In this document: positions 1 to 12,018 of the stretch, one piece after another
How the letters are laid out: each line of letters starts with the position of its first letter
How positions within the stretch are numbered: the first letter of the stretch is position 1
NCBI RefSeq assembly: GCF_017695955.1
Contig: NZ_JAAORO010000003.1
Coordinates: 496,001-560,000, forward strand
DNA: 64,000 nt
Direction of reading: 5' to 3'
From: Prochlorococcus marinus XMU1419
GTDB lineage: Bacteria > Cyanobacteriota > Cyanobacteriia > PCC-6307 > Cyanobiaceae
The notes under the pieces: model-generated
The model's database searches: none
What the model was told of the DNA's origin: nothing
Seen by the model: the letters and a program-made list of their open reading frames with translations, nothing else
Program-made: the position numbers and the translations under genes

Positions 1-1
1 G

Positions 2-163
2 AAAGATCCCTGGGAATCTTTGAGCGAAGCAAAAGCTTGGAAGAAAAACTATGAAAATATCACAAGGTTAGATGTAATTAAGGGTGCTGGTCATTGTCCC
101 CACGATGAAGAACCTGAACAAACGAATAAATTAATCTGTGAATTTATTCAAGAAACGAAATAG
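2..163 (+). CDS. Alpha/beta hydrolase, C-terminal fragment (cut by window edge)
   Basis: Only the last 53 codons are in the window; the gene begins upstream of base 1. The end of the protein reads GAGHCPHDEEPEQTN followed by a short helix. This is the usual arrangement around the catalytic histidine near the C-terminus of alpha/beta-fold hydrolases, where a G-x-G/S-H-x-x-x-x-E-x-P pattern is typical. Substrate cannot be told from this piece. Its stop codon lies inside the 3' end of the convergent sigma factor gene, overlapping it by 16 bases. Family assignment is an inference from the terminal motif only. Confidence 0.7.
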   Translation, partial: KDPWESLSEAKAWKKNYENITRLDVIKGAGHCPHDEEPEQTNKLICEFIQETK

Positions 164-1149
164 GCCTCTACATTATCACTAAGCCTTCTCAAACCTCTTA
201 ATCCATCTCTTTCAAGGTTTCTTACACGATCCCTACTTATTCCAAGTACCCTTCCTATACCTGTAAGAGACATTGGCTCATCACCATCCATACCGTATCT
301 CATTCTTAAAACCCTGCATTGCAAATCTGGAAGTTGATGCAAAAGAGAATGAAGATCACCTCTCATGCAATCCATCTCTATTTGTTCATCTGGTAAATCC
401 TCTCCTCCTGCCAATAAATCTAATAAAACAGTGTCTTCACCATCACCAACTTTTGTCTCAAGACTTACTGGCTGTCCAGCTTTGCACATTAAATCTTTAA
501 CATCATCTTCTGGAAGTTCTACATATTTAGCAAGTTCACTTACGGTTGGAGTTCTAGACATTTCTTGACTCAACTCTCTTTGACCTTTTTTCAACTTGTT
601 CAACATTTCAGTGATGTGAATTGGAAGCCTTATAGCCCTACTTTTTTCAGCAATTGCTCTAGTGATTCCCTGTCTAATCCACCAATAGGCGTATGTAGAA
701 AATTTATAGCCTCTAGCTGGATCAAATTTTTCAACCCCTCTAACCAACCCTATTGTTCCCTCCTGAATTAAGTCTAATAATTCCATATTTCTTTTAGTAT
801 ATTTTTTTGCAACACTTACTACTAATCTCAAATTAGCTGCAACCATTCTTTCTTTAGCACGCTGTCCAGCTCTCAGCCTTTTCTTTATTTGGGAGGAAGA
901 AAGATTTAGTTTTTTTGCTAATTCATCAATGTTTGGCTTATCACCAGTTAATTCAATTATTTCAAGTTCTGCCCTTTCTACTTGAACGTATTCTTGAACT
1001 TGTCTACCAAGAGTAATTTCTTGTTCATGAGATAGTAATGGAACTCTTCCAATATCTCTTAAATATGAACGAACTAGATCTACATCATTGCTAGCTTTTA
1101 AATTTGAAATTGATGCTAATTTATTCTCGCTTATTGTTTCAGTAGACAT
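148..1149 (-). CDS. Group 2 RNA polymerase sigma-70 factor
   Basis: Sigma subunit that directs core RNA polymerase to promoters. Using the start at 1149 (333 residues), region 1.2 lies around residues 22-54, region 2 around 98-168 (with NLRLVVSVAKKY, DLIQEGTIGLVRGVEKFD and FSTYAYWWIRQGI), region 3 around 177-250, and region 4 around 270-325, ending in the helix-turn-helix LTGIGRVLGISRDRVR. There is no region 1.1, so this is a non-essential-type group 2 factor rather than the primary RpoD. An alternative start at 1182 adds 11 residues (MVLFTKHHPYF) that do not look like family sequence. A TACAAT element at 1193-1188 would put transcription start near 1182 and favours the shorter form. It follows mgtE by about 100 bases on the same strand. 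The exact paralogue (SigB, C, D type) cannot be decided here. Confidence 0.93.
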   Translation of the reverse strand: MSTETISENKLASISNLKASNDVDLVRSYLRDIGRVPLLSHEQEITLGRQVQEYVQVERAELEIIELTGDKPNIDELAKKLNLSSSQIKKRLRAGQRAKERMVAANLRLVVSVAKKYTKRNMELLDLIQEGTIGLVRGVEKFDPARGYKFSTYAYWWIRQGITRAIAEKSRAIRLPIHITEMLNKLKKGQRELSQEMSRTPTVSELAKYVELPEDDVKDLMCKAGQPVSLETKVGDGEDTVLLDLLAGGEDLPDEQIEMDCMRGDLHSLLHQLPDLQCRVLRMRYGMDGDEPMSLTGIGRVLGISRDRVRNLERDGLRGLRRLSDNVEAYFVS

Positions 1150-1187
1150 GAAATAAGGATGATGTTTTGTAAACAATACCATTAAGA

Positions 1188-1193
1188 ATTGTA
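1188..1193 (-). promoter_or_regulatory. Candidate -10 element for the sigma factor gene
   Basis: The minus strand reads TACAAT here, about 40 bases before the preferred start codon at 1149. No convincing -35 hexamer is seen 16-18 bases upstream. In such AT-rich DNA this is weak evidence by itself. Confidence 0.25.
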
Positions 1194-1202
1194 AAGTTAA
1201 AC

Positions 1203-1229
1203 AAAAAAATCCACATTTTCACAAAAATG
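1203..1229 (-). terminator. Weak hairpin plus T-run between mgtE and the sigma gene
   Basis: On the minus strand a 6-bp stem (CATTTT / AAAATG, bases 1229-1224 and 1219-1214, loop TGTG) is followed after TGGA by seven T residues (1209-1203). It could end mgtE transcripts or attenuate read-through into the sigma gene. The stem is almost purely A/T, so stability is low. Confidence 0.3.
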
Positions 1230-1250
1230 AGAATAAATACCTAGTTAAAT

Positions 1251-2657
1251 CTATATAAATTTCGAAGCTAATAGCCATTTTGCAGTACTTAAATAAATAA
1301 ATACACCTGCTATGTCAGTTACTGTTGTTATAAAGGGAGATGACATTAAAGCTGGGTCCAATCTCATTTTGTCAAATAACAAAGGAAGAATAGCTCCAGT
1401 GGTAGCTGCCAATGTAGTTATAGAAATAAGACTTATGCCCACGGCAGCTGCTATTAAAGGCCCCTCTCCTTGCCACCAAGCAAAAGGAAGCACAACTAGC
1501 ATCATCAAGATTCCTAAAAGAGCGCCTGTTATTGACTCTCTAACTACTGCCTTAATGGCACCAAGAGACTTTAATTTTTGAGTACTTAAACCTCTAATTA
1601 CAACAGTCGAGCTTTGAGCACCAACATTTCCCCCAGTACCTATTAGCAATGGAATAAATGCAGCTAGTAAAACTATTTCTTTTAATATTTGATCATTCAT
1701 TGCAATAACTTTTGTAGTTAAACCATTTGCAAGAACTAAAATTAATAACCAAAGAATTCGTCGTCGAGTTATCGTGAATAAACTACTTTGAAAATAATCA
1801 TCCTCATCACTAGGCTGTATAGCACCCGCTGCATAAATATCTCGAGTTGCTTCCTGTTCCATGACATCAATTAAATCATCAACAGTTACTATTCCGACAA
1901 GTCTTTTTTCTTTATCAACAACTGGAAGGGCTAAAAAATCATATCTTTGTATTGCTCGTGCGACTTCTTCTTGATTAGTATTGGTTGAAATATTAACTAC
2001 ATCTTTTGTCATTACATCTCCTATAGGTTTGGCAGGATCAGCTGTCACAAGGTCTCTAAGAGAAAGAATTCCTGTTAAATGTCTTTCTTTATCCGTTACA
2101 TATAAGCTATAAATAGTTTCTGTAAATGGAGCTCTTTTTCTCACCAAAGATAGAGCTTCAGCCGCTGTTTGCATCTCTTTAAGATCTATAAATTCAGTAG
2201 TCATTAATCTTCCAGCAGTTTCTGGCTCATATCCAAGTAATTCAGCTGTTACTTTTCTTTCACCAGGACTAAGTGCAGATAAAAATTTTCGTACAACTTT
2301 TGCAGGTAACTCATCAAAAAGTTGCACCCTATCGTCAGGTGACATTTTTTCTACAATTTCTAGAACTTCTCCCGAACGAAGTCTGTCTAATAAAGTTTGC
2401 TGAACTATTGGATCTAAATATTCATAAACTTCAATTGCCTCATTTTTCTTTAACAATCGGAATGCCAATGCTTGCAGTATTAATGGAAGACTTCCAATAG
2501 CATCAGCAATATCGACAGGCTGGGAAGGCTCAAGAAGTAACTTTGCTTCATCATAATTTCCTGCTACTAGTAATTCTTCAAGTTGAATAGTAATTTTTTC
2601 TCTATTACTTATTTCTGAAGAAAAGGATCTAATCGATTCAAGTCTACTCTCATTCAT
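1251..2657 (-). CDS. mgtE: MgtE-type magnesium transporter
   Basis: Magnesium-gated inner-membrane Mg2+ channel of 468 residues, the normal family length. The N-terminal helical superhelical domain covers about residues 25-150, a tandem CBS pair about 150-270, and five membrane helices about 300-465. The signature GTGGNVGAQSS at about 340-350 and the pore aspartate in TVTDIAG near 448 are both present. In the family, Mg2+ bound between the N and CBS domains closes the pore when the cytosol is replete. It lies 43 bases downstream of the crcB pair in a leftward block, suggesting an ion-homeostasis group. No M-box riboswitch is possible in the short upstream gap. Confidence 0.95.
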   Translation of the reverse strand: MNESRLESIRSFSSEISNREKITIQLEELLVAGNYDEAKLLLEPSQPVDIADAIGSLPLILQALAFRLLKKNEAIEVYEYLDPIVQQTLLDRLRSGEVLEIVEKMSPDDRVQLFDELPAKVVRKFLSALSPGERKVTAELLGYEPETAGRLMTTEFIDLKEMQTAAEALSLVRKRAPFTETIYSLYVTDKERHLTGILSLRDLVTADPAKPIGDVMTKDVVNISTNTNQEEVARAIQRYDFLALPVVDKEKRLVGIVTVDDLIDVMEQEATRDIYAAGAIQPSDEDDYFQSSLFTITRRRILWLLILVLANGLTTKVIAMNDQILKEIVLLAAFIPLLIGTGGNVGAQSSTVVIRGLSTQKLKSLGAIKAVVRESITGALLGILMMLVVLPFAWWQGEGPLIAAAVGISLISITTLAATTGAILPLLFDKMRLDPALMSSPFITTVTDIAGVFIYLSTAKWLLASKFI

Positions 2658-2700
2658 TGATATAATTCCTAGTCAAGGTCTTAACAACATTATAAGAAAT

Positions 2701-3030
2701 CTAAGTAATTTTTCTACTGATCCAAAACCCACAAATCATTATAAATAAATTAGTGATGATTATTAAATTAAAAAATATTATGAATTTTATCCATTCTCCT
2801 TGATGAAGAATTTCATATAAAAGAAATACGAATCCAGTGAAAGAAGTAAAACAAGAAAAAAAACCAGTTAATAAAATTTTTTTACTTAAGTCATTTAATC
2901 TTTTTCTAATTATAAAACCAAAGAAAAATGATCCAACTAGTGAAATAATTAAGTTATCGTCTATTAGCAATCTTAATAAAGTCGCTAAATAGCATGCTAA
3001 GAGGATATAAATATAATATTTTATTTTCAC
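2701..3030 (-). CDS. crcB: CrcB-type fluoride channel subunit, divergent copy
   Basis: A 109-residue four-helix membrane protein of the CrcB/Fluc family, which exports fluoride as dual-topology dimers. The GSFFFGF segment near residue 33 and GFFSCFTSFTGF near 56 correspond to the family's first and central conserved blocks. This copy has lost several hallmarks: the pore asparagine expected two residues before the hydrophobic-Gly-Ser block is Ser, the N-terminal Gly before the conserved Arg is Ala, and the central GxxTTFST-like segment is altered. Its start overlaps the stop of the neighbouring canonical crcB by four bases (ATGA), so translation is probably coupled. It most likely works as one half of a heterodimer with the neighbour. 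That is inference. Confidence 0.85.
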   Translation of the reverse strand: MKIKYYIYILLACYLATLLRLLIDDNLIISLVGSFFFGFIIRKRLNDLSKKILLTGFFSCFTSFTGFVFLLYEILHQGEWIKFIIFFNLIIITNLFIMICGFWISRKIT

Positions 3031-3398
3031 ATTAATAAAAATTTAACTAGAAAATAACCTAAATAAAATAAAATAAAAGCAATAAACATTACCTCTAAAT
3101 AATGAAAAAATAAACTTAAGAATTTTCTCTTTTGAAATAAAATAAATAGTTGATATATAAAAGAAGAAAATGTACTAAAAGATCCTAAAAAACCAGCATA
3201 AAATAACATTAATAAGTTGTTATTACTAAAATTTAATGCCACAAAAATTCCTAAAAAGAAGGATCCTATAAAATTTACTACTGAAATATTTTGAATGTCA
3301 AAACCTAAATTTATTTTTAAATTATTTTGTATGATTATTCTAAGTATTAATCCTAAAGTACTACCAAGAAAAACTATTCTTATTGAATGAAAATCCAA
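3027..3398 (-). CDS. crcB: CrcB-type fluoride channel subunit, canonical copy
   Basis: A 123-residue, four-helix membrane protein. It carries the family motifs GSTLGLILR near the N-terminus, VVNFIGSFFLG near residue 40 (including the pore asparagine), and GFLGSFSTFSSF near 70, which matches the central helix break with its phenylalanine box. The family forms fluoride-specific channels in the cytoplasmic membrane. It starts three bases after the SH3-like gene and overlaps the second crcB by four bases. No fluoride riboswitch fits in the three-base gap upstream, so expression must come from read-through of the gyrB block or from a promoter inside an upstream gene. Confidence 0.9.
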   Translation of the reverse strand: MDFHSIRIVFLGSTLGLILRIIIQNNLKINLGFDIQNISVVNFIGSFFLGIFVALNFSNNNLLMLFYAGFLGSFSTFSSFIYQLFILFQKRKFLSLFFHYLEVMFIAFILFYLGYFLVKFLLM

Positions 3399-3401
3399 AA
3401 T

Positions 3402-3727
3402 TTACATTTTTATCCAGCCTTTTGTAATTTTATAAGGATCGTCCAAAAATTTATTAGAAGCTAATTCAACCCTTACCCAAACTTCGCTTTCGCTAACTTT
3501 CCAATTACGTAAAACTGATAATGTAGTACCTATATCAAGAACTAATAATTCTTTTGCATAAATTTTAGGAAAAGAATAAAGAGAAGTATTTGATGTCAAT
3601 ATAATTTCGTTTGTATTACTATAAAACTGATGTTGACTTAAATTTTTTTGAATTCCCCCAGCAGGTAAGGTAATCGGACCTATTAACGCAAATATAATTA
3701 AACAAATATTCTTTAGCAGATTATTCA

Positions 3728-3728
<1 letters not shown>
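3402..3728 (-). CDS. Small secreted SH3-like domain protein
   Basis: A 108-residue protein with an N-terminal hydrophobic signal-like segment (NICLIIFALIGPITLPAGG). The rest looks like a single bacterial SH3-type barrel: short beta strands, a TSLYSFP entry strand, VWVRVEL, and a terminal GWI. This fold is common in periplasmic wall-associated proteins. I do not recognise a named family. Its ATG overlaps the gyrB stop by one base (TAATG), so it is very likely co-translated with gyrB. Role unknown; export is inferred from the N-terminus only. Confidence 0.7.
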
Positions 3729-5712
<1,984 letters not shown>

Positions 5713-5716
5713 TTAA

Positions 5717-5740
5717 TCTTTTAAAATGTTATTTTTAAAA
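5717..5740 (-). promoter_or_regulatory. Hairpin in the gyrB leader
   Basis: A perfect 9-bp inverted repeat (CTTTTAAAA / TTTTAAAAG, loop of six) lies 22 bases before the gyrB start. On the gyrB strand it is followed after seven bases by nine T residues (5709-5701), a layout resembling a weak intrinsic terminator or attenuator. The stem has only one G:C pair, so stability in RNA is doubtful. Confidence 0.3.
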
Positions 5741-5809
5741 GGTCTTTAATTAAACTTATCACTGTAATTAAAGAAAGGCTCGAAGTATATGAAAAATTTA
5801 ATTACTTTA

Positions 5810-5817
5810 ATTATATA
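5810..5817. promoter_or_regulatory. Overlapping divergent -10-like elements of gyrB and miaA
   Basis: The minus strand reads TATAAT at 5815-5810 (115 bases before gyrB) and the plus strand reads TATATA at 5812-5817 (29 bases before miaA). Either could be a -10 element. No clear -35 elements are seen, so this rests on hexamer match and position only. Confidence 0.25.
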
Positions 5818-5845
5818 GCCAATAAAATATTCTTCAGAAATTAAC

Positions 5846-6745
5846 ATGATTTCTAATTCACCTCATGTAATAGTTTTAATAGGGCCCACAGCGAGTGGTA
5901 AAACAGAATTAGCTATAGAAGTTGCAGAATATTTTAAAACTTATATACATAATATCGATTCAAGACAAATATATAAATATATGGATATTGGCACAGCGAA
6001 ACCATCTAAGAGTCAACAAAAAAAAATAAAGCATTTTTTATTAGATATTAAAGAGCCCTCTAGTCCAATTAATGTAAAACAATTTCAAGAAATTGCTCAA
6101 AAATCTATAGAAAGAGAAATTAAACTAAAAAATCTACCTTTCCTTGTGGGAGGAAGTGGTTTGTATATGAACGCAATAACAAAAGGGTTTTTTGTGCCAG
6201 ATATTCCCCCACAGAATTATTTGAGGAGACAATTAGAAGATCTTGGTCAGAAAGAATGTTGGGAAATTTTAAAGAATTGTGATCCAAAATCAACAAAAAA
6301 AATTAATTCTGGTGATCAGATTAGAACAATAAGAGCTTTGGAAGTCCTTTATGTAACGGGTAAACCTTTATCAACTCAAATAGTGCAGAAACCACCTGAC
6401 TGGAGAATACTAGAGCTTGGAATAGATAGAAATAATTTAAAAGAGAGAATTTTACAAAGAACAAAAAATATGTTTAATACTGGAATTATTGAAGAAACAA
6501 AACATCTTATTTTTCAATATGGATCTGACTTGCCAATACTAAAAACCATTGGTTATCGGGAAGCTAAGGAAGTCCTAAATAACAATTTAACGATAAATCA
6601 GGCAATTGAATTAACTTCTATAAAAACTATCCAATTTGCCAAAAGACAAAAAACATGGTTTCGAAATAAAAATAATCCTATTTGGCTTAATAACAAAAAC
6701 CTGCTAAAAGATGCAATAATTAAAATAGAGTCTTTTTTAGGCTAA
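5846..6745 (+). CDS. miaA: tRNA dimethylallyltransferase
   Basis: Transfers a dimethylallyl group from DMAPP to A37 of tRNAs that read codons beginning with U (299 residues). The P-loop GPTASGKT is at residues 13-20, followed by the substrate block [18 protein letters not shown] near 38-55, then [16 protein letters not shown] and the C-terminal TIGYREAKE and [10 protein letters not shown] segments. All family hallmarks are present at the usual length. It is divergent from gyrB and lies 54 bases upstream of infC in the same direction, so the two may be co-transcribed. Confidence 0.97.
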
Positions 6746-6799
6746 ATTTATAAATATTAGAATTTGCTCATCATCCAATCATTTTATTAATTCAACTGA

Positions 6800-7372
6800 A
6801 TGCCACCACGCCCACGCTTTGACCGCCGCGCTCCTGTAAGAGAGCTCCCAAATATCAATGAAAGAATAAAATACCCTCAATTGAGAGTTGTTGATTCAGA
6901 TGGAAAACAATTAGGTGTCATAGATAGATTGAAAGCATTAGACATCGCCTCTCAAAGAGAACTTGATCTAGTTTTGGTAAGCGAAAAAGCTAACCCTCCT
7001 GTTTGTAGAATCATGGACTATGGAAAATATAAATTTGAACAAGAAAAAAAAGCAAAAGAGGCAAGAAAAAAATCTCATCAAACAGAAGTTAAAGAAGTAA
7101 AAATGAGGTACAAAATTGACAAGCATGATTATGACGTCCGTATAGGTCAAGCTACTAGATTTTTAAAATCTGGAGATAAAGTAAAATGCACGGTAATTTT
7201 TAGGGGTAGGGAAATTCAACACTCAAATTTAGCGGAAACACTTCTTTTAAAAATGGCTAATGATTTAGAAGAACAATCCGAAGTGCAACAAAAGCCAAAA
7301 AGAGAAGGTAGAAATATGATTATGTTTTTAAGCCCTAGAAAAACTCCCCTTATTAAGAAAGATTCCGAGTGA
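6800..7372 (+). CDS. infC: Translation initiation factor IF-3
   Basis: A 190-residue initiation factor that binds the 30S subunit and polices start-codon selection. The N-domain includes [22 protein letters not shown]. The lysine-rich linker around residues 75-90 ([16 protein letters not shown]) and the C-domain ([18 protein letters not shown]) are typical, with LSPRK at the end. The start codon is a plain ATG preceded by a basic extension ([11 protein letters not shown]). The AUU/AUC start that mediates autoregulation in enterobacteria is therefore absent. It is not linked to rpmI-rplT, which lie about 30 kb away. Confidence 0.97.
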
Positions 7373-7450
7373 AAAATTATTATCGAAAATCTATGACGAA
7401 TGTTAAAGTGTCACCATATATAAAAATTAATTAGTAAGGATTTTTCTAAA

Positions 7451-8437
7451 GTGAGATTCCATATTCAGCAAGAAAGTGATATACCAGCATCGACACAACT
7501 CTATAATCAAATTTGCTTTGCAATAGCTGCTAGACATTATCCTCCCGGTCATAGACTTCCAAGCACCAGGCAGCTTGCAATGCAAACTGGACTTCATCGT
7601 AATACTATAAGCAAAGTTTATAGACAGCTTGAAATAGATGGTGTAGTAGAAGCTATAGCTGGATCAGGCATCTATGTAAGAGATAATTTAACTAAAAAAG
7701 ACTTCAAAAAATCAATTTACTCAAAAGAAAAAATAAGTAAACCACCAGATCAAGAAGCAAAGAAAGCTATTGATAGCTTTATAAATATTGGCTGCACCTT
7801 ACAAGAAACTAGAGAAATATTAACCAATGAAATTGATTGGCGTATTAAATGTGGAGGAAGAATTTTAGTAAGTACTCCAAGAGAGGATATTGGTGCTTCT
7901 ATGCTCATTGCAGAAGACCTCTCTCCAAAAATTAATGTGCCAGTAGAAGTTGTTCCCATGGAAGAACTAGAAAAAGTTTTAAGTAATTCAAATAATGGAA
8001 CTATCGTAACAAGCAGATATTTTTTACAACCTCTAGAAAAAGTTGCTAAACAGCATGGAGTACGAGCTATTGCAGTGGACTTGAGCGACTTTCAAAAGGA
8101 ATTAAAAATCCTACAAGAATTTCATACTGGAAGTTGTGTAGGTATTGTTAGCATAAGTCCAGGATTATTGAGAGCTGCAGAAGTTATCATCCACAGCATG
8201 AGAGGTAGCGAATTAATTCTTATGACAGCAGTTTCAGATAATAACAGTAGATTACTATCACTTTTAAAGACTTCAAACCTAATAGTTTGTGATGGGCCGA
8301 GTTTATCAGTCGTAGAAAATACTTTATTAAAAAATAGGTCTCAGCTTATTAGATTACCTCAAATAATATGTGCTAAAAATTATTTAAGTATCGAAACAAT
8401 AAATCACTTAAAAAAAGAGATTGGAGTCATCAATTAA
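7451..8437 (+). CDS. GntR-family transcription regulator with an unassigned C-terminal domain
   Basis: A 328-residue protein starting at GTG. Residues 1-78 form a GntR-type winged helix (STQLYNQICFAIAA, PPGHRLPSTRQLA, GLHRNTISKVYRQLE, GSGIYV). The remaining roughly 230 residues do not resemble the aminotransferase domain of MocR regulators, the FadR all-helical domain or a clear UTRA domain. They contain alternating strands and helices, for example RILVSTPRED, GTIVTSRYFL and GSCVGIVSISPG. The gene ends six bases before cysE, so co-expression with cysteine synthesis is likely. A link to sulfur status is inferred from position only. Confidence 0.85.
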   Translation: MRFHIQQESDIPASTQLYNQICFAIAARHYPPGHRLPSTRQLAMQTGLHRNTISKVYRQLEIDGVVEAIAGSGIYVRDNLTKKDFKKSIYSKEKISKPPDQEAKKAIDSFINIGCTLQETREILTNEIDWRIKCGGRILVSTPREDIGASMLIAEDLSPKINVPVEVVPMEELEKVLSNSNNGTIVTSRYFLQPLEKVAKQHGVRAIAVDLSDFQKELKILQEFHTGSCVGIVSISPGLLRAAEVIIHSMRGSELILMTAVSDNNSRLLSLLKTSNLIVCDGPSLSVVENTLLKNRSQLIRLPQIICAKNYLSIETINHLKKEIGVIN

Positions 8438-8443
8438 ATTATT

Positions 8444-9178
8444 ATGTTAACGACATTTAAATCAGATATAGAAATAATCAAAGAGAGAGATCCCGCTGCC
8501 AGAGGGATAATTGAGATCTTTCTTTGTTACCCAGGATTTCAATCAATAGTTATTCATAGATTTACCCATAAATTATGGAACTTAAAAATTCCTCTAATTC
8601 CACGCTTGTTAAGTCATCTGAATAGGTTAGCAACTGGAATTGAAATCCATCCAGGGGCCAAAATTGGTAAGCGAGTTTTCATAGATCATGGAATGGGAGT
8701 CGTAATTGGTGAAACAGCTGAGATAGGAAATAACTGTCTGCTTTATCAAGGTGTGACATTAGGGGGTACTGGGAAAAGTCATGGGAAAAGACACCCAACC
8801 CTAATGGAAAATGTTGTGGTGGGAGCAGGTGCAAAAGTTCTTGGATCCATCACAGTAGGATCTAATACACGTATAGGTGCTGGTTCAGTTGTTGTTCGGA
8901 ATGTAGAGGGTAACAGTACTGTAGTTGGAGTTCCTGGAAGAGTAGTACATCAAAGTGGAGTCAAAGTAAATCCATTGGCTCATTCAGCTTTACCAGATGC
9001 AGAAGCTAATGTGATAAAAAATTTGATGGATAGGATAGATTTTCTTGAAAATGAAATTCTTAAATTGCAAAAAACTATACAATGTATTGCTAACTCAGAA
9101 TCTATTGATATATCTAAACTCGGAGATTCTCAAAATATTAAAGACAAAGAAATTATTGAATTTCTTGGAGATGAATAA
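8444..9178 (+). CDS. cysE: Serine O-acetyltransferase
   Basis: Acetylates L-serine with acetyl-CoA, the first step of cysteine synthesis, in the cytoplasm. An N-terminal helical part (DPAARGIIEIFLCYPGFQ) precedes the left-handed beta-helix of hexapeptide repeats (residues about 65-170: GIEIHPGAKIGKRVFIDHG, GVVIGETAEIG, GVTLGGTGK, RHPTLMENVVVGAGAKVLG). The catalytic His region IDHGMG and the GKRHP motif are present. The 244-residue length includes an extra C-terminal helical tail of about 60 residues with unknown function. It lies six bases after the GntR-type regulator and is convergent with secA. Confidence 0.96.
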   Translation: MLTTFKSDIEIIKERDPAARGIIEIFLCYPGFQSIVIHRFTHKLWNLKIPLIPRLLSHLNRLATGIEIHPGAKIGKRVFIDHGMGVVIGETAEIGNNCLLYQGVTLGGTGKSHGKRHPTLMENVVVGAGAKVLGSITVGSNTRIGAGSVVVRNVEGNSTVVGVPGRVVHQSGVKVNPLAHSALPDAEANVIKNLMDRIDFLENEILKLQKTIQCIANSESIDISKLGDSQNIKDKEIIEFLGDE

Positions 9179-9186
9179 AACTTGAT

Positions 9187-12018
9187 TTATTTTTTGTCTT
9201 CCGTATCAGTTTTAGGTTGAAACATAAACATTGAATAAATAACATTCCGTCTCATATTAGTCATCATTTCAAGAAACATATCATATCCCTCGTTTTTATA
9301 TTCGATTAAAGGATCTTTTTGGCCATACCCTCTTAGGCCAACTGATTCTCTTAAGGAATCCATGGATTGCAGATGTTCTCGCCACAAATTATCAATTTGC
9401 TGCAAAATGAAGAATCTTTCAGCTTCTCTCATTAATCCTGGACGAATCTTTTCAATTTGAGATTCTTTTAAATCATAAGCTATTCGCAACTGCTCCTGAA
9501 GATAGCTTTTTAATTCTTCTACGGAAAGTAAATTAATATCATCAGCTTTTAGGTCATCTAATAAGTAAATAAATTCTTTAACTTTAGAAATCAATTGATC
9601 AATATTCCATTCTTCAGGAGGAAGATCGGGATTAATATAAGCTTCTACAATTTCACTCATTGTTTTTTCTCCATATCCTATTACTTGCTTTTTTAAATCA
9701 ATTCCTTGCAGAACTCTTAGTCTTTCGCTGTAAACTGCTTTTCTTTGATTGTTCATTACCTCATCATATTCAAAAACTTGTTTTCTAATATCGTAATAAT
9801 ATGTCTCCACTTTCTTTTGAGCACTTTCTAAAGATCTAGTAAGCATTCCTGATTCTATAGGCATATCTTCATCAACTCTAAATGCATTCATTAAATTTGC
9901 TACCCTGTCGCCTCCAAAAATCCTTAAAAGATTATCTTCTAAAGATAAAAAGAATCTGGTACTTCCTAGATCTCCTTGTCTTCCTGCTCGGCCTCTAAGT
10001 TGATTATCCACTCTTCTTGATTCATGTCTTTCAGTACCAATGACATGTAATCCGCCAGCTTGTCTTACTTTTTCCTCTTCATGAATCAAAACTTTTTCAT
10101 ATTCTTTTTTTACTTCTGATAAGGATTCTCTCAAAAGCTTTATTGAGTTATCTTCGGTGGGTGCTTTTTCTGCAGCTGTAGCTATCCTGTCATCTAGCTC
10201 TAAGAGAGAAAGTTGTCTATCACCCCAATCCTTGATGAGTTCATTTGATAAGAGAGAGAGTTTCTTTTCAATTTCTTCATCCAGTTTACAAGGGAAAAGA
10301 CTTATTGAAGAATTTGAAGCTTTCTTTTTTAACTTGGAGCCATTTTTTGAAGAAAAACCGCCTTTCACTTTTGAATTTCTTTGTTTAGGGATAGGTGGCT
10401 TATGCTCATTTTCCGGCTTTACTAGCAAAGGAACTAAAATCTCTTTTAATTTAAGTCTTGCCATATAGTCACTGTTACCACCAAGAATTATATCTGTTCC
10501 CCTTCCCGCCATATTAGTTGCGATAGTAACAGCACCTGCTCTTCCTGCCTGGGCTATAATTTCAGCCTCACGTTCAACATTCTCTGGCTTAGCATTTAAT
10601 AAATTATGTGGAATTTTTTCTTCAGATAGAAGTGAACTTAATAACTCACTTTTTTCAACACTTGTTGTACCAACTAAAACAGGTCTGCCATCTCTATGAA
10701 TTTGTGTAGTTTCTTTAGCAACGGCTTTCCACTTACCAATCTCTGTCTTAAAAACTTGATCGGACCAATCTTGTCTCTTCCTTATTTGGTTTGTAGGGAT
10801 AACTGTTGATTCTAATTTATAAGTTTTCTCAAATTCAACTTCCTCTGTTTTTGCAGTACCGGTCATTCCTGCTAAACCAGGATATAAGAGGAAAAAATTT
10901 TGATAAGTTATGGATGCTAATGTTTGTGTCTCAGGCTGAATTTTAAGACTCTCTTTTGCTTCTATTGCCTGATGCTGACCATCACTCCAGCGCCTTCCAG
11001 GCATTACCCTACCAGTAAATTCATCCACTATGACAGCTTCCTCATTTTTAATAATGTAATTTACATCTTTAACAAACAATTCTTTGGCTTTTAAAGCGTT
11101 AGTTATATAATGTGCCCAAGGATCTTGAGGATTATATAAATCACTTACTCCTAGATAGTCTTCGCATTTTGCAAAACCGTCATCAGTTAATATGCAACTT
11201 CTCTGCTTTTCATCAACTTCATAATCACCTTCTGGATCAATACCATCTTTACTTAATTCTTTTGCTTTAATTAAAACCTGAGATAATTCCGCAGCTTTTT
11301 GATATTTTTCTTGCGGTCTTTCAACTTGACCAGAAATAATTAGAGGTGTTCTTGCTTCATCAATGAGTATTGAATCAACTTCATCTATCACACAATAATT
11401 AAAGTTTCTTTGCACTACCTCATTTATATCAGTAGACATATTATCTCTTAAATAATCAAATCCTAATTCAGAATTTGTAGCATAAGTGATATCACAAGCA
11501 TAATTTTTCTTTCTCTCAACTGGGTTCATATCTTGCTGAATTAAACCAACAGATAAACCTAAAAAACGATGGACTTGTCCCATCCACTCAGCATCTCTTC
11601 TAGCTAAATAATCATTGACCGTGACGACATGAACGCCTTTCCCAGTCAAAGCATTTAAATAACAAGGTAATGTTGCAACAAGCGTTTTTCCTTCTCCAGT
11701 CTTCATTTCGGCAATTTGACATTCGTGTAAAACCATTCCACCTATTAATTGAACATCAAAATGTCTCATATCAAGAACACGTTTGCTAGCTTCTCGAACA
11801 ATTGCAAAAGCTTTTGGAAGAAATTCTTCTAAGAGTGCCTTTTGTTTTTTTATATCTAATTCTGATGAGATAGTTGATTTTAGGTTATTAGTTTCTTTTC
11901 TTAACTCATCATCTGTTAAATCAGAAGTTTCCTTTTCTAAAAAATTTATCTCTTCCACTATTGGTTGATAGCGCTTTAACTTTCGTGCATTCGGATCTCC
12001 CAACAAAAGTTTTAGCAT
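9187..12018 (-). CDS. secA: Preprotein translocase ATPase SecA
   Basis: Motor of the Sec pathway at the plasma and thylakoid membranes (943 residues). The Walker A GEGKT is at residues 108-112, the DEAD-like [14 protein letters not shown] follows, and [20 protein letters not shown] marks the second helicase lobe. An Asn/Lys/Ser-rich insert lies about 525-570 ([25 protein letters not shown]). The protein ends with no C-terminal cysteine-rich zinc motif, so SecB-type binding through that site is not expected. An AAGGA sequence at 12032-12028 is well placed as a ribosome binding site. Confidence 0.98.

Follow-up and report, generated by a model that had tools for sequence, protein, structure and literature searches.

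A tandem CrcB/Fluc pair beside gyrB in Prochlorococcus whose second subunit may have moved its pore asparagine from TM2 to TM4

The stretch of DNA analysed here, called the window throughout, comprises 64,000 nt of the 1.64-Mb genome of Prochlorococcus marinus XMU1419 (G000:C3:496001-560000). On its minus strand, two intact open reading frames, which we term copy A and copy B, overlap by 4 nt within the gene order gyrB, a 108-aa ORF, copy A, copy B and mgtE (Table 1). Since the gaps between these genes on one strand are short or absent, the five are likely to be co-transcribed. The first gene of the series we take to be gyrB; the 108-aa ORF matched nothing in Pfam or NCBIfam and is presumably SH3-like. 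Under our start-picking rule, the TTG start of copy A is shared by 61 of the 65 pairs from the same genus (g1); in the window this codon follows in frame, two codons past the stop codon of the preceding 108-aa reading frame (3396-3404). As the earlier note on this DNA had stated, no fluoride riboswitch precedes the pair: none was found in window positions 1..12000 at E <= 1, in any of 17 related loci at the gathering score, or in any of 19 genomes of the genus (the window's own plus 18 others). Overall, 5 of 30 genomes carry one, all five from other families.

The same note had read the two frames as overlapping crcB genes, which agrees with their being open and with both passing the PF02537 gathering cut-off of 32.9 bits, copy A clearly and copy B barely. 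The listed NCBIfam crcB models set higher thresholds, and both copies fall short of them (copy A 45.6 versus 80.45 bits for TIGR00494; copy B 24 versus 119 bits for its best model and 20.7 bits for TIGR00494); we therefore claim neither gene as a crcB equivalog. The residue differences described from the letters alone are likewise all there. Copy A keeps the pore asparagine (N41 of Fluc-Ec2, hereafter Ec2) within VVNFIGSFFLG, along with GFLGSFSTFSSF, whereas copy B has Ser at that place and a changed central block, GFFSCFTSFTGF. In TM1, copy B carries Ala at Ec2 position 15, where other B copies have Gly, and Cys at position 12, where they have Ala or Ser. All four central phenylalanines (Ec2 F80 and F83 of both subunits) are present in the window's pair and in most of its clade. 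By homology and gene order we file the altered B as a descendant of the CrcB/Fluc family, its role in a Fluc pore being putative. We label pairs of g1 with such an altered B HL-type, and the other pairs LL-like.

Monomer models from AlphaFold2, built on alignments of 22 and 21 sequences, were weak (copy B, pLDDT 68 and pTM 0.47; copy A, 67.6 and 0.56). Weak as they are, their helix patterns would fit the four TM helices and broken TM3 of Fluc. Foldseek ranked Fluc structures first for the weak A model (5nkq_C, probability 0.98, E 0.23) and returned no Fluc match for the weak B model.

Table 1. Genes and key codons of the CrcB/Fluc locus, in window coordinates
Feature	Position	Strand	Remarks
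mgtE, downstream of pair, same strand	1251..2657	-	TIGR00400 512.8 bits; conserved neighbour
Copy B, CrcB/Fluc subunit, 109 aa	2701..3030	-	GTG start; PF02537 33.9 bits; charge bias +5 predicts termini inside
B Asn94 codon = Ec2 110, TM4 polar track	2749..2751	-	Gly in most other Cyanobiaceae B
B Phe67 codon = Ec2 F83	2830..2832	-	Trp in 60/63 other Cyanobiaceae B
B Phe64 codon = Ec2 F80, assigned to pore A	2839..2841	-	
B Ser30 codon = Ec2 41	2941..2943	-	Other Cyanobiaceae B copies keep the pore Asn here
Copy A, CrcB/Fluc subunit, 123 aa	3027..3398	-	TTG start; PF02537 61.3 bits; charge bias -3 predicts termini outside
A Phe80 codon = Ec2 F83, assigned to pore A	3159..3161	-	
A Phe77 codon = Ec2 F80, assigned to pore B	3168..3170	-	
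A Asn42 codon = Ec2 N41	3273..3275	-	
108-aa ORF between gyrB and copy A	3402..3728	-	Conserved neighbour
gyrB, upstream of pair, same strand	3728..5695	-	Conserved neighbour
Charge bias is the number of Lys and Arg on the N-terminus, loop 2 and the C-terminus minus that on loops 1 and 3; its value is -3 for copy A and +5 for copy B.

The pair is family-wide in Cyanobiaceae and not peculiar to the window's genome. Among family genomes at least 85% complete, 313 of 334 have a CrcB match (258 of the 270 high-quality ones), and 309 of these 313, by our reading, have exactly two, which fits neither subunit working alone; the exceptions are G273 and G353 with one match each, G269 with three and G193 with four. 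At the level of the genus, a CrcB match was obtained for 217 of 266 genomes and for 86 of the 87 high-quality ones. Some absences reflect assembly, as in G122, where a contig end falls within copy A and accounts for the missing copy. Copy B itself has a match at E <= 1e-3 in 112 of 115 genomes of the genus, four of them weak or broken matches only, and the recurrence of similar open frames across the genus is more than chance would give. Among titled records, its closest relatives are nearly all Prochlorococcus copies, for example those of strains MIT 9302, MIT 9314 and MIT 9401. Copy B is kept, not lost, in close relatives. The order miaA-gyrB-ORF-A-B-mgtE-rpoD is found in g1 and, at one or two loci per genus, in g3, g8, g18, g23, g25, g26, g27 and g34, in a survey where short loci had their ends cut off and where an ORF or CrcB copy was sometimes too divergent for tblastn, CrcB positions then being taken from other searches. 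In g17 (G330) the pair lies away from gyrB. We thus rejected the idea of an oddity of one genome, given a pair present in most Cyanobiaceae genomes and often in the same gene order. A phage copy was also considered and dropped, a search of the phages collection having returned no match. In a one-contig g3 genome (L178 of G269, near 3357-3725, and L157), copy A is broken by a TAA and copy B is open.

The earlier note had proposed that the two copies form a heterodimer, to be checked by counting Lys and Arg on the loops, and had named a shared orientation of both copies as evidence to the contrary. The count gave opposite signs for the window's copies (Table 1), and the same arrangement, A negative and B positive, holds for 138 of the 139 HL-type pairs that could be mapped (of 140, one failed in its A row), for all four LL-like pairs of g1 and for 54 of 59 pairs from other Cyanobiaceae genera. 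An earlier count with poorer mapping had given 32/32 and 42/45. Among nine outgroup pairs the figure is six; for two of the nine, whose genes lie on opposite strands, the naming as A or B is arbitrary. La1/La2, proven heterodimers, show the same opposite loop charge pattern (PMC3755343). By this likeness the fixed opposite bias makes an antiparallel heterodimer well supported, with the termini of copy A predicted outside and those of copy B inside, and it disfavours a dual-topology homodimer of each copy. Most likely, then, each of the two adjacent genes supplies one half of a channel for fluoride export.

The family alignment of both copies, another check put forward earlier, places all altered B copies in one clade inside the genus. 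In Ec2 numbering, we set 61 HL-type pairs against 63 pairs from the remaining Cyanobiaceae (59 from other genera plus the four LL-like g1 pairs), leaving out duplicates (L001, L002), broken loci (L090, L156, L157) and loci that were truncated or single (L091, L108, L158). At position 41 of copy B, the 63 others all have Asn, versus 59 Ser, one Gly and one Tyr in the HL-type. At position 110, a change absent from the earlier sequence-only account, every HL-type B has Asn, versus 59 Gly, two Ala, one Ser and one gap. Position 83 of copy B is Phe in 59 HL-type pairs (one Tyr, one Val) versus Trp in 60 others (three Leu), and position 75 is Ser in 57 (four Ala) versus Gly in 62 (one Ala). Copy A changed as well, at 110 (56 Ser, four Ala and one Thr versus 63 Gly) and at 106 (60 Val and one Ala versus 63 Ser). 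Ser41 together with Asn110 recurs in 80 of 80 further B loci, kept from 169 relatives and coming from genomes partly shared with the first set; all are Prochlorococcus except three uncultured Synechococcaceae. The two HL-type sets together hold 140 pairs, 131 of them distinct. An alignment slip at TM2 or TM4 was rejected: from TM3 to the C-terminus, no gap lies near 110, whether B is aligned with Ec2 or altered with ordinary B.

To place these changes we drew on the literature on the Fluc pore (PMC5636608, PMC5417652, PMC3755343, PMC4969038, PMC8315801 and PMC5957342). Each pore is built from one subunit's T37, N41, F83, E86 and TM4 track (102, 106, 110, 114) and the partner's F80 and S84 (PMC5636608 and PMC5417652 among the sources); the assignment of F83 to a subunit's own pore and of F80 to its partner's is our reading of the FEX motifs, and one sentence in PMC5417652 pairs them otherwise. 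N41 ranks among the most strictly conserved Fluc residues, and N41S, N41Q and N41Y each abolish flux in Ec2 (PMC5636608), whereas in Bpe the equivalent N43S is listed among permeable mutants (PMC8315801, its mutant-table columns taken from plain text), so that published mutants point both ways on whether a Ser41 pore conducts. The ion sites of Bpe are ringed by N43, S108, S112, F82 and F85, and in simulations a water at the F82 site contacts two groups, the hydroxyl of Ser112 and the backbone carbonyl of Asn43 (PMC5957342). N43 and S112, which both line this F82 site, correspond to Ec2 41 and 110, so that an Asn at 110 might extend to where N41 acts.

The homodimers Fluc-Ec2 and Fluc-Bpe belong to the same family and share the TM3 block. 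HL-type A resembles them with its Ec2-like N41/S110 (56/61); HL-type B, unlike them, has the reverse, S41/N110 (59/61), and the Prochlorococcus channel would consist of two gene products of fixed orientation where theirs is one dual-topology protein. At other positions both HL-type pores break rules established in Ec2, where a donor is needed at 106 and, of the residues tried at 114, one of T, V and I (PMC5636608): HL-type A has Val106 and Phe114, and HL-type B has Ile106 and Met114. Position 102 of copy B is aromatic in 61/61 HL-type pairs (40 Phe, 20 Tyr, one Trp); Bpe has Tyr there, and its Y104F conducts (PMC8315801). In the window's own copy A, position 110 is Ala and the residue equivalent to Bpe T39 is Ile; V, A, C and N all failed at that site in Bpe (PMC8315801). 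Two further TM4 residues stand out. Asn88 of the window's copy B (2767-2769, Ec2 104) is a second new invariant Asn, found in 61/61 HL-type B copies, and residue 102 of its copy A (Ec2 105) is a Glu inside TM4, found in 52/61 HL-type A copies and in 21/21 of a smaller alignment.

When did the change arise? A FastTree phylogeny from part of GyrB (107 aligned sequences over 326 columns), whose labels may shift by one node on re-rooting, places G023, G025 and G263 at the base of g1, their order among themselves being weak, and unites G104 with the remaining g1 (local support 0.97 at the node). The three basal genomes carry an ordinary-type pair away from gyrB (L173, L174, L175, L274-L276) and in them the ORF and mgtE lie too close together to fit a pair. 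G104 and the remaining g1 carry the altered pair, at gyrB wherever larger loci were checked. A tree of A and B together joins the altered pairs through a single stem (length 0.91, support 0.93). A single stem means one event, so the joint change at 41 and 110 comes without statistical replication. Ordinary-type pairs from G023, G025, G263 and G193 cluster in this tree with those of genus g25, which makes their transfer possible. Near the ordinary-type pair, G025 and G263 also have the Yfr8 small RNA (RF02360).

G193, an 85%-complete assembly, falls within the altered clade of the GyrB tree. Its altered-type pair at the gyrB site is in several pieces (L176, G193:C18, 4401-5093), and an intact ordinary-type pair lies elsewhere (L177, G193:C3, 3127-3872), on a stretch that also encodes tRNA-methyltransferase (PF01746), sulfotransferase and YgbB. 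This combination fits replacement by an equivalent channel and suggests that altered and ordinary pairs may do the same task, contamination being another possible source. It thereby speaks against a reading that we consider improbable, in which the pore formed by copy B is no plain fluoride pore but differs in selectivity or regulation. Such a pore would account for the new residues in TM3 and TM4 of copy B, invariant across the clade; against it also stands that no Fluc mutant compiled in PMC8315801 is reported there to shift ion selectivity.

Copy B is under purifying selection: median dN/dS is 0.24, and 0.21 for copy A, over 307 close pairs that are not independent. That copy B is a decaying pseudogene, which the earlier note had named as a way its proposal could fail, is accordingly very improbable. 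Its bit score, 1 bit over the Pfam cut-off and below all NCBIfam cut-offs listed, and the broken pair of G193 would suit decay, but the clade-wide motif is invariant and all 140 HL-type pairs used are open, in a set from which broken and truncated loci had been removed beforehand.

Site rates bear on the two pores separately, P being the fraction of 20,000 random draws of TM sites with a mean as low. In the 131 distinct HL-type pairs, pore A has a mean rate of 0.289 versus 0.876 for random TM sites (P 0.0009) and pore B 0.403 versus 0.914 (P 0.004). The corresponding values for the 63 other Cyanobiaceae pairs are 0.398 versus 1.004 (P 0.001) and 0.728 versus 1.007 (P 0.11). Constraint is thus stronger on pore A than on pore B in either group, and on pore B it is tighter in the altered clade than in other Cyanobiaceae, not looser. 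The slow sites of pore B in the altered clade are 41, 83, 110, 114 and A80, whereas the 86/102/106 end runs near background (0.83, 1.08 and 0.76).

The earlier note had suggested either a heterodimer with a single working pore or a subunit of altered ion choice. With the pore-B sites slow as a set, a new invariant Asn110 and a dN/dS of 0.24, decay to a single pore is not favoured, and the loss of one Asn alongside the gain of a neighbouring one looks more like rebuilding than simple decay. Our preferred explanation starts from an obligate antiparallel Fluc-type heterodimer, encoded by a pair that is old in Cyanobiaceae, through which fluoride would leave the cell. On one stem branch within the genus, Asn41/Gly110 of copy B became Ser41/Asn110 and Trp83 became Phe83, Asn110 then being kept in all copies seen. 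In pore B, the Asn that hands fluoride from one phenylalanine to the other would now reach in from TM4 and no longer from TM2, and pore B, so rebuilt, would conduct beside pore A. That the pore Asn moved between these helices and left pore B rebuilt and conducting has, on this evidence, about an even chance of being right. The fuller version, in which relocation from Ec2 41 to 110 and the Trp83 to Phe change leave pore B conducting fluoride with its hydrogen-bond donor on the opposite wall, is plausible but falls somewhat short of that.

Pore B could instead be closed throughout the clade, with pore A alone conducting and copy B serving as a structural partner that contributes its Phe80 to the conducting pore; the role of Asn110 and of the new TM3 motif would then be in packing. 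We regard this as a real possibility, if a rather doubtful one. It draws on the dead Ec2 mutants at N41, on the slower rates of pore A in both groups and on the background rate at one end of pore B, which would agree with a loss of pore B, and conservation of the pore-B core could be structural in origin. Loss of one pore by drift has been proposed for the La and Sa pairs (PMC5636608), and eukaryotic FEX proteins have one functional pore and a vestigial other (PMC5417652). Since copy B gained two invariant Asn in TM4 (104 and 110), landing on 110 could also be luck. Against a closed pore B stand the permeable N43S of Bpe, the frozen pore-B core including A80 and B83, the Trp to Phe change at B83, and the fact that pore A, too, departs from the Ec2 rules at 106 and 114.

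One further argument was dropped. F83W, like F83Y and Leu at 83, abolishes flux in Ec2 (PMC5636608), from which an ancestral pore B with Trp83 might be called dead. Tyr83, however, occurs in 8/9 first and 9/9 second copies of nine pairs from other cyanobacterial families, and Leu83 occurs in copy A of five g16/g27 genomes (L035, L037, L065, L072, L085), which undercuts the argument further. Copy B of these five has Trp83 in four and Leu83 in one.

A CLC-type antiporter was weighed as a stand-in for CrcB: a CLC-family protein (PF00654) is encoded in 18/18 genomes searched, and 8 of 12 loci read GSGFP, close to GSGIP, the chloride-type CLC motif. The window's genome has one of these GSGFP proteins (L277, G000:C3:576710-577774).

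Heterodimeric CrcB pairs and the proposal that drift can abolish one pore are already in print. La1/La2 of Lactobacillus acidophilus, Sa1/Sa2 and Mt1/Mt2 are likewise tandem PF02537 homologues with opposite loop charge, and one or both partners have a changed Phe-box residue (PMC3755343, PMC5636608). The changes printed for those pairs hit phenylalanines, whereas the Prochlorococcus pair keeps all four and has one subunit's Asn replaced, with an Asn at 110. FEX proteins offer a similar asymmetric domain pair, one domain better conserved (PMC5417652); they are fused and their second pore has drifted, whereas the second-pore core in Prochlorococcus is conserved, with Phe at the four central positions. 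In the parts of the Fluc literature consulted, the S41/N110 arrangement was not found, and it appears to be new. By title, papers on crcB or fluoride in Prochlorococcus or cyanobacteria yielded nothing on the pair, in a search that covered subscription journals little.

The ordinary part of the finding is a heterodimeric CrcB pair beside gyrB, an arrangement found across the family. Beyond it, a Prochlorococcus clade in which one subunit is without N41 and has an Asn at a touching position is a natural test of whether a Fluc pore needs the donor or the place, as well as of how many pores, one or two, survive in diverged Fluc pairs. If the preferred reading is true, this would be a natural relocation of the Fluc pore asparagine, in a heterodimer of an abundant ocean phototroph.
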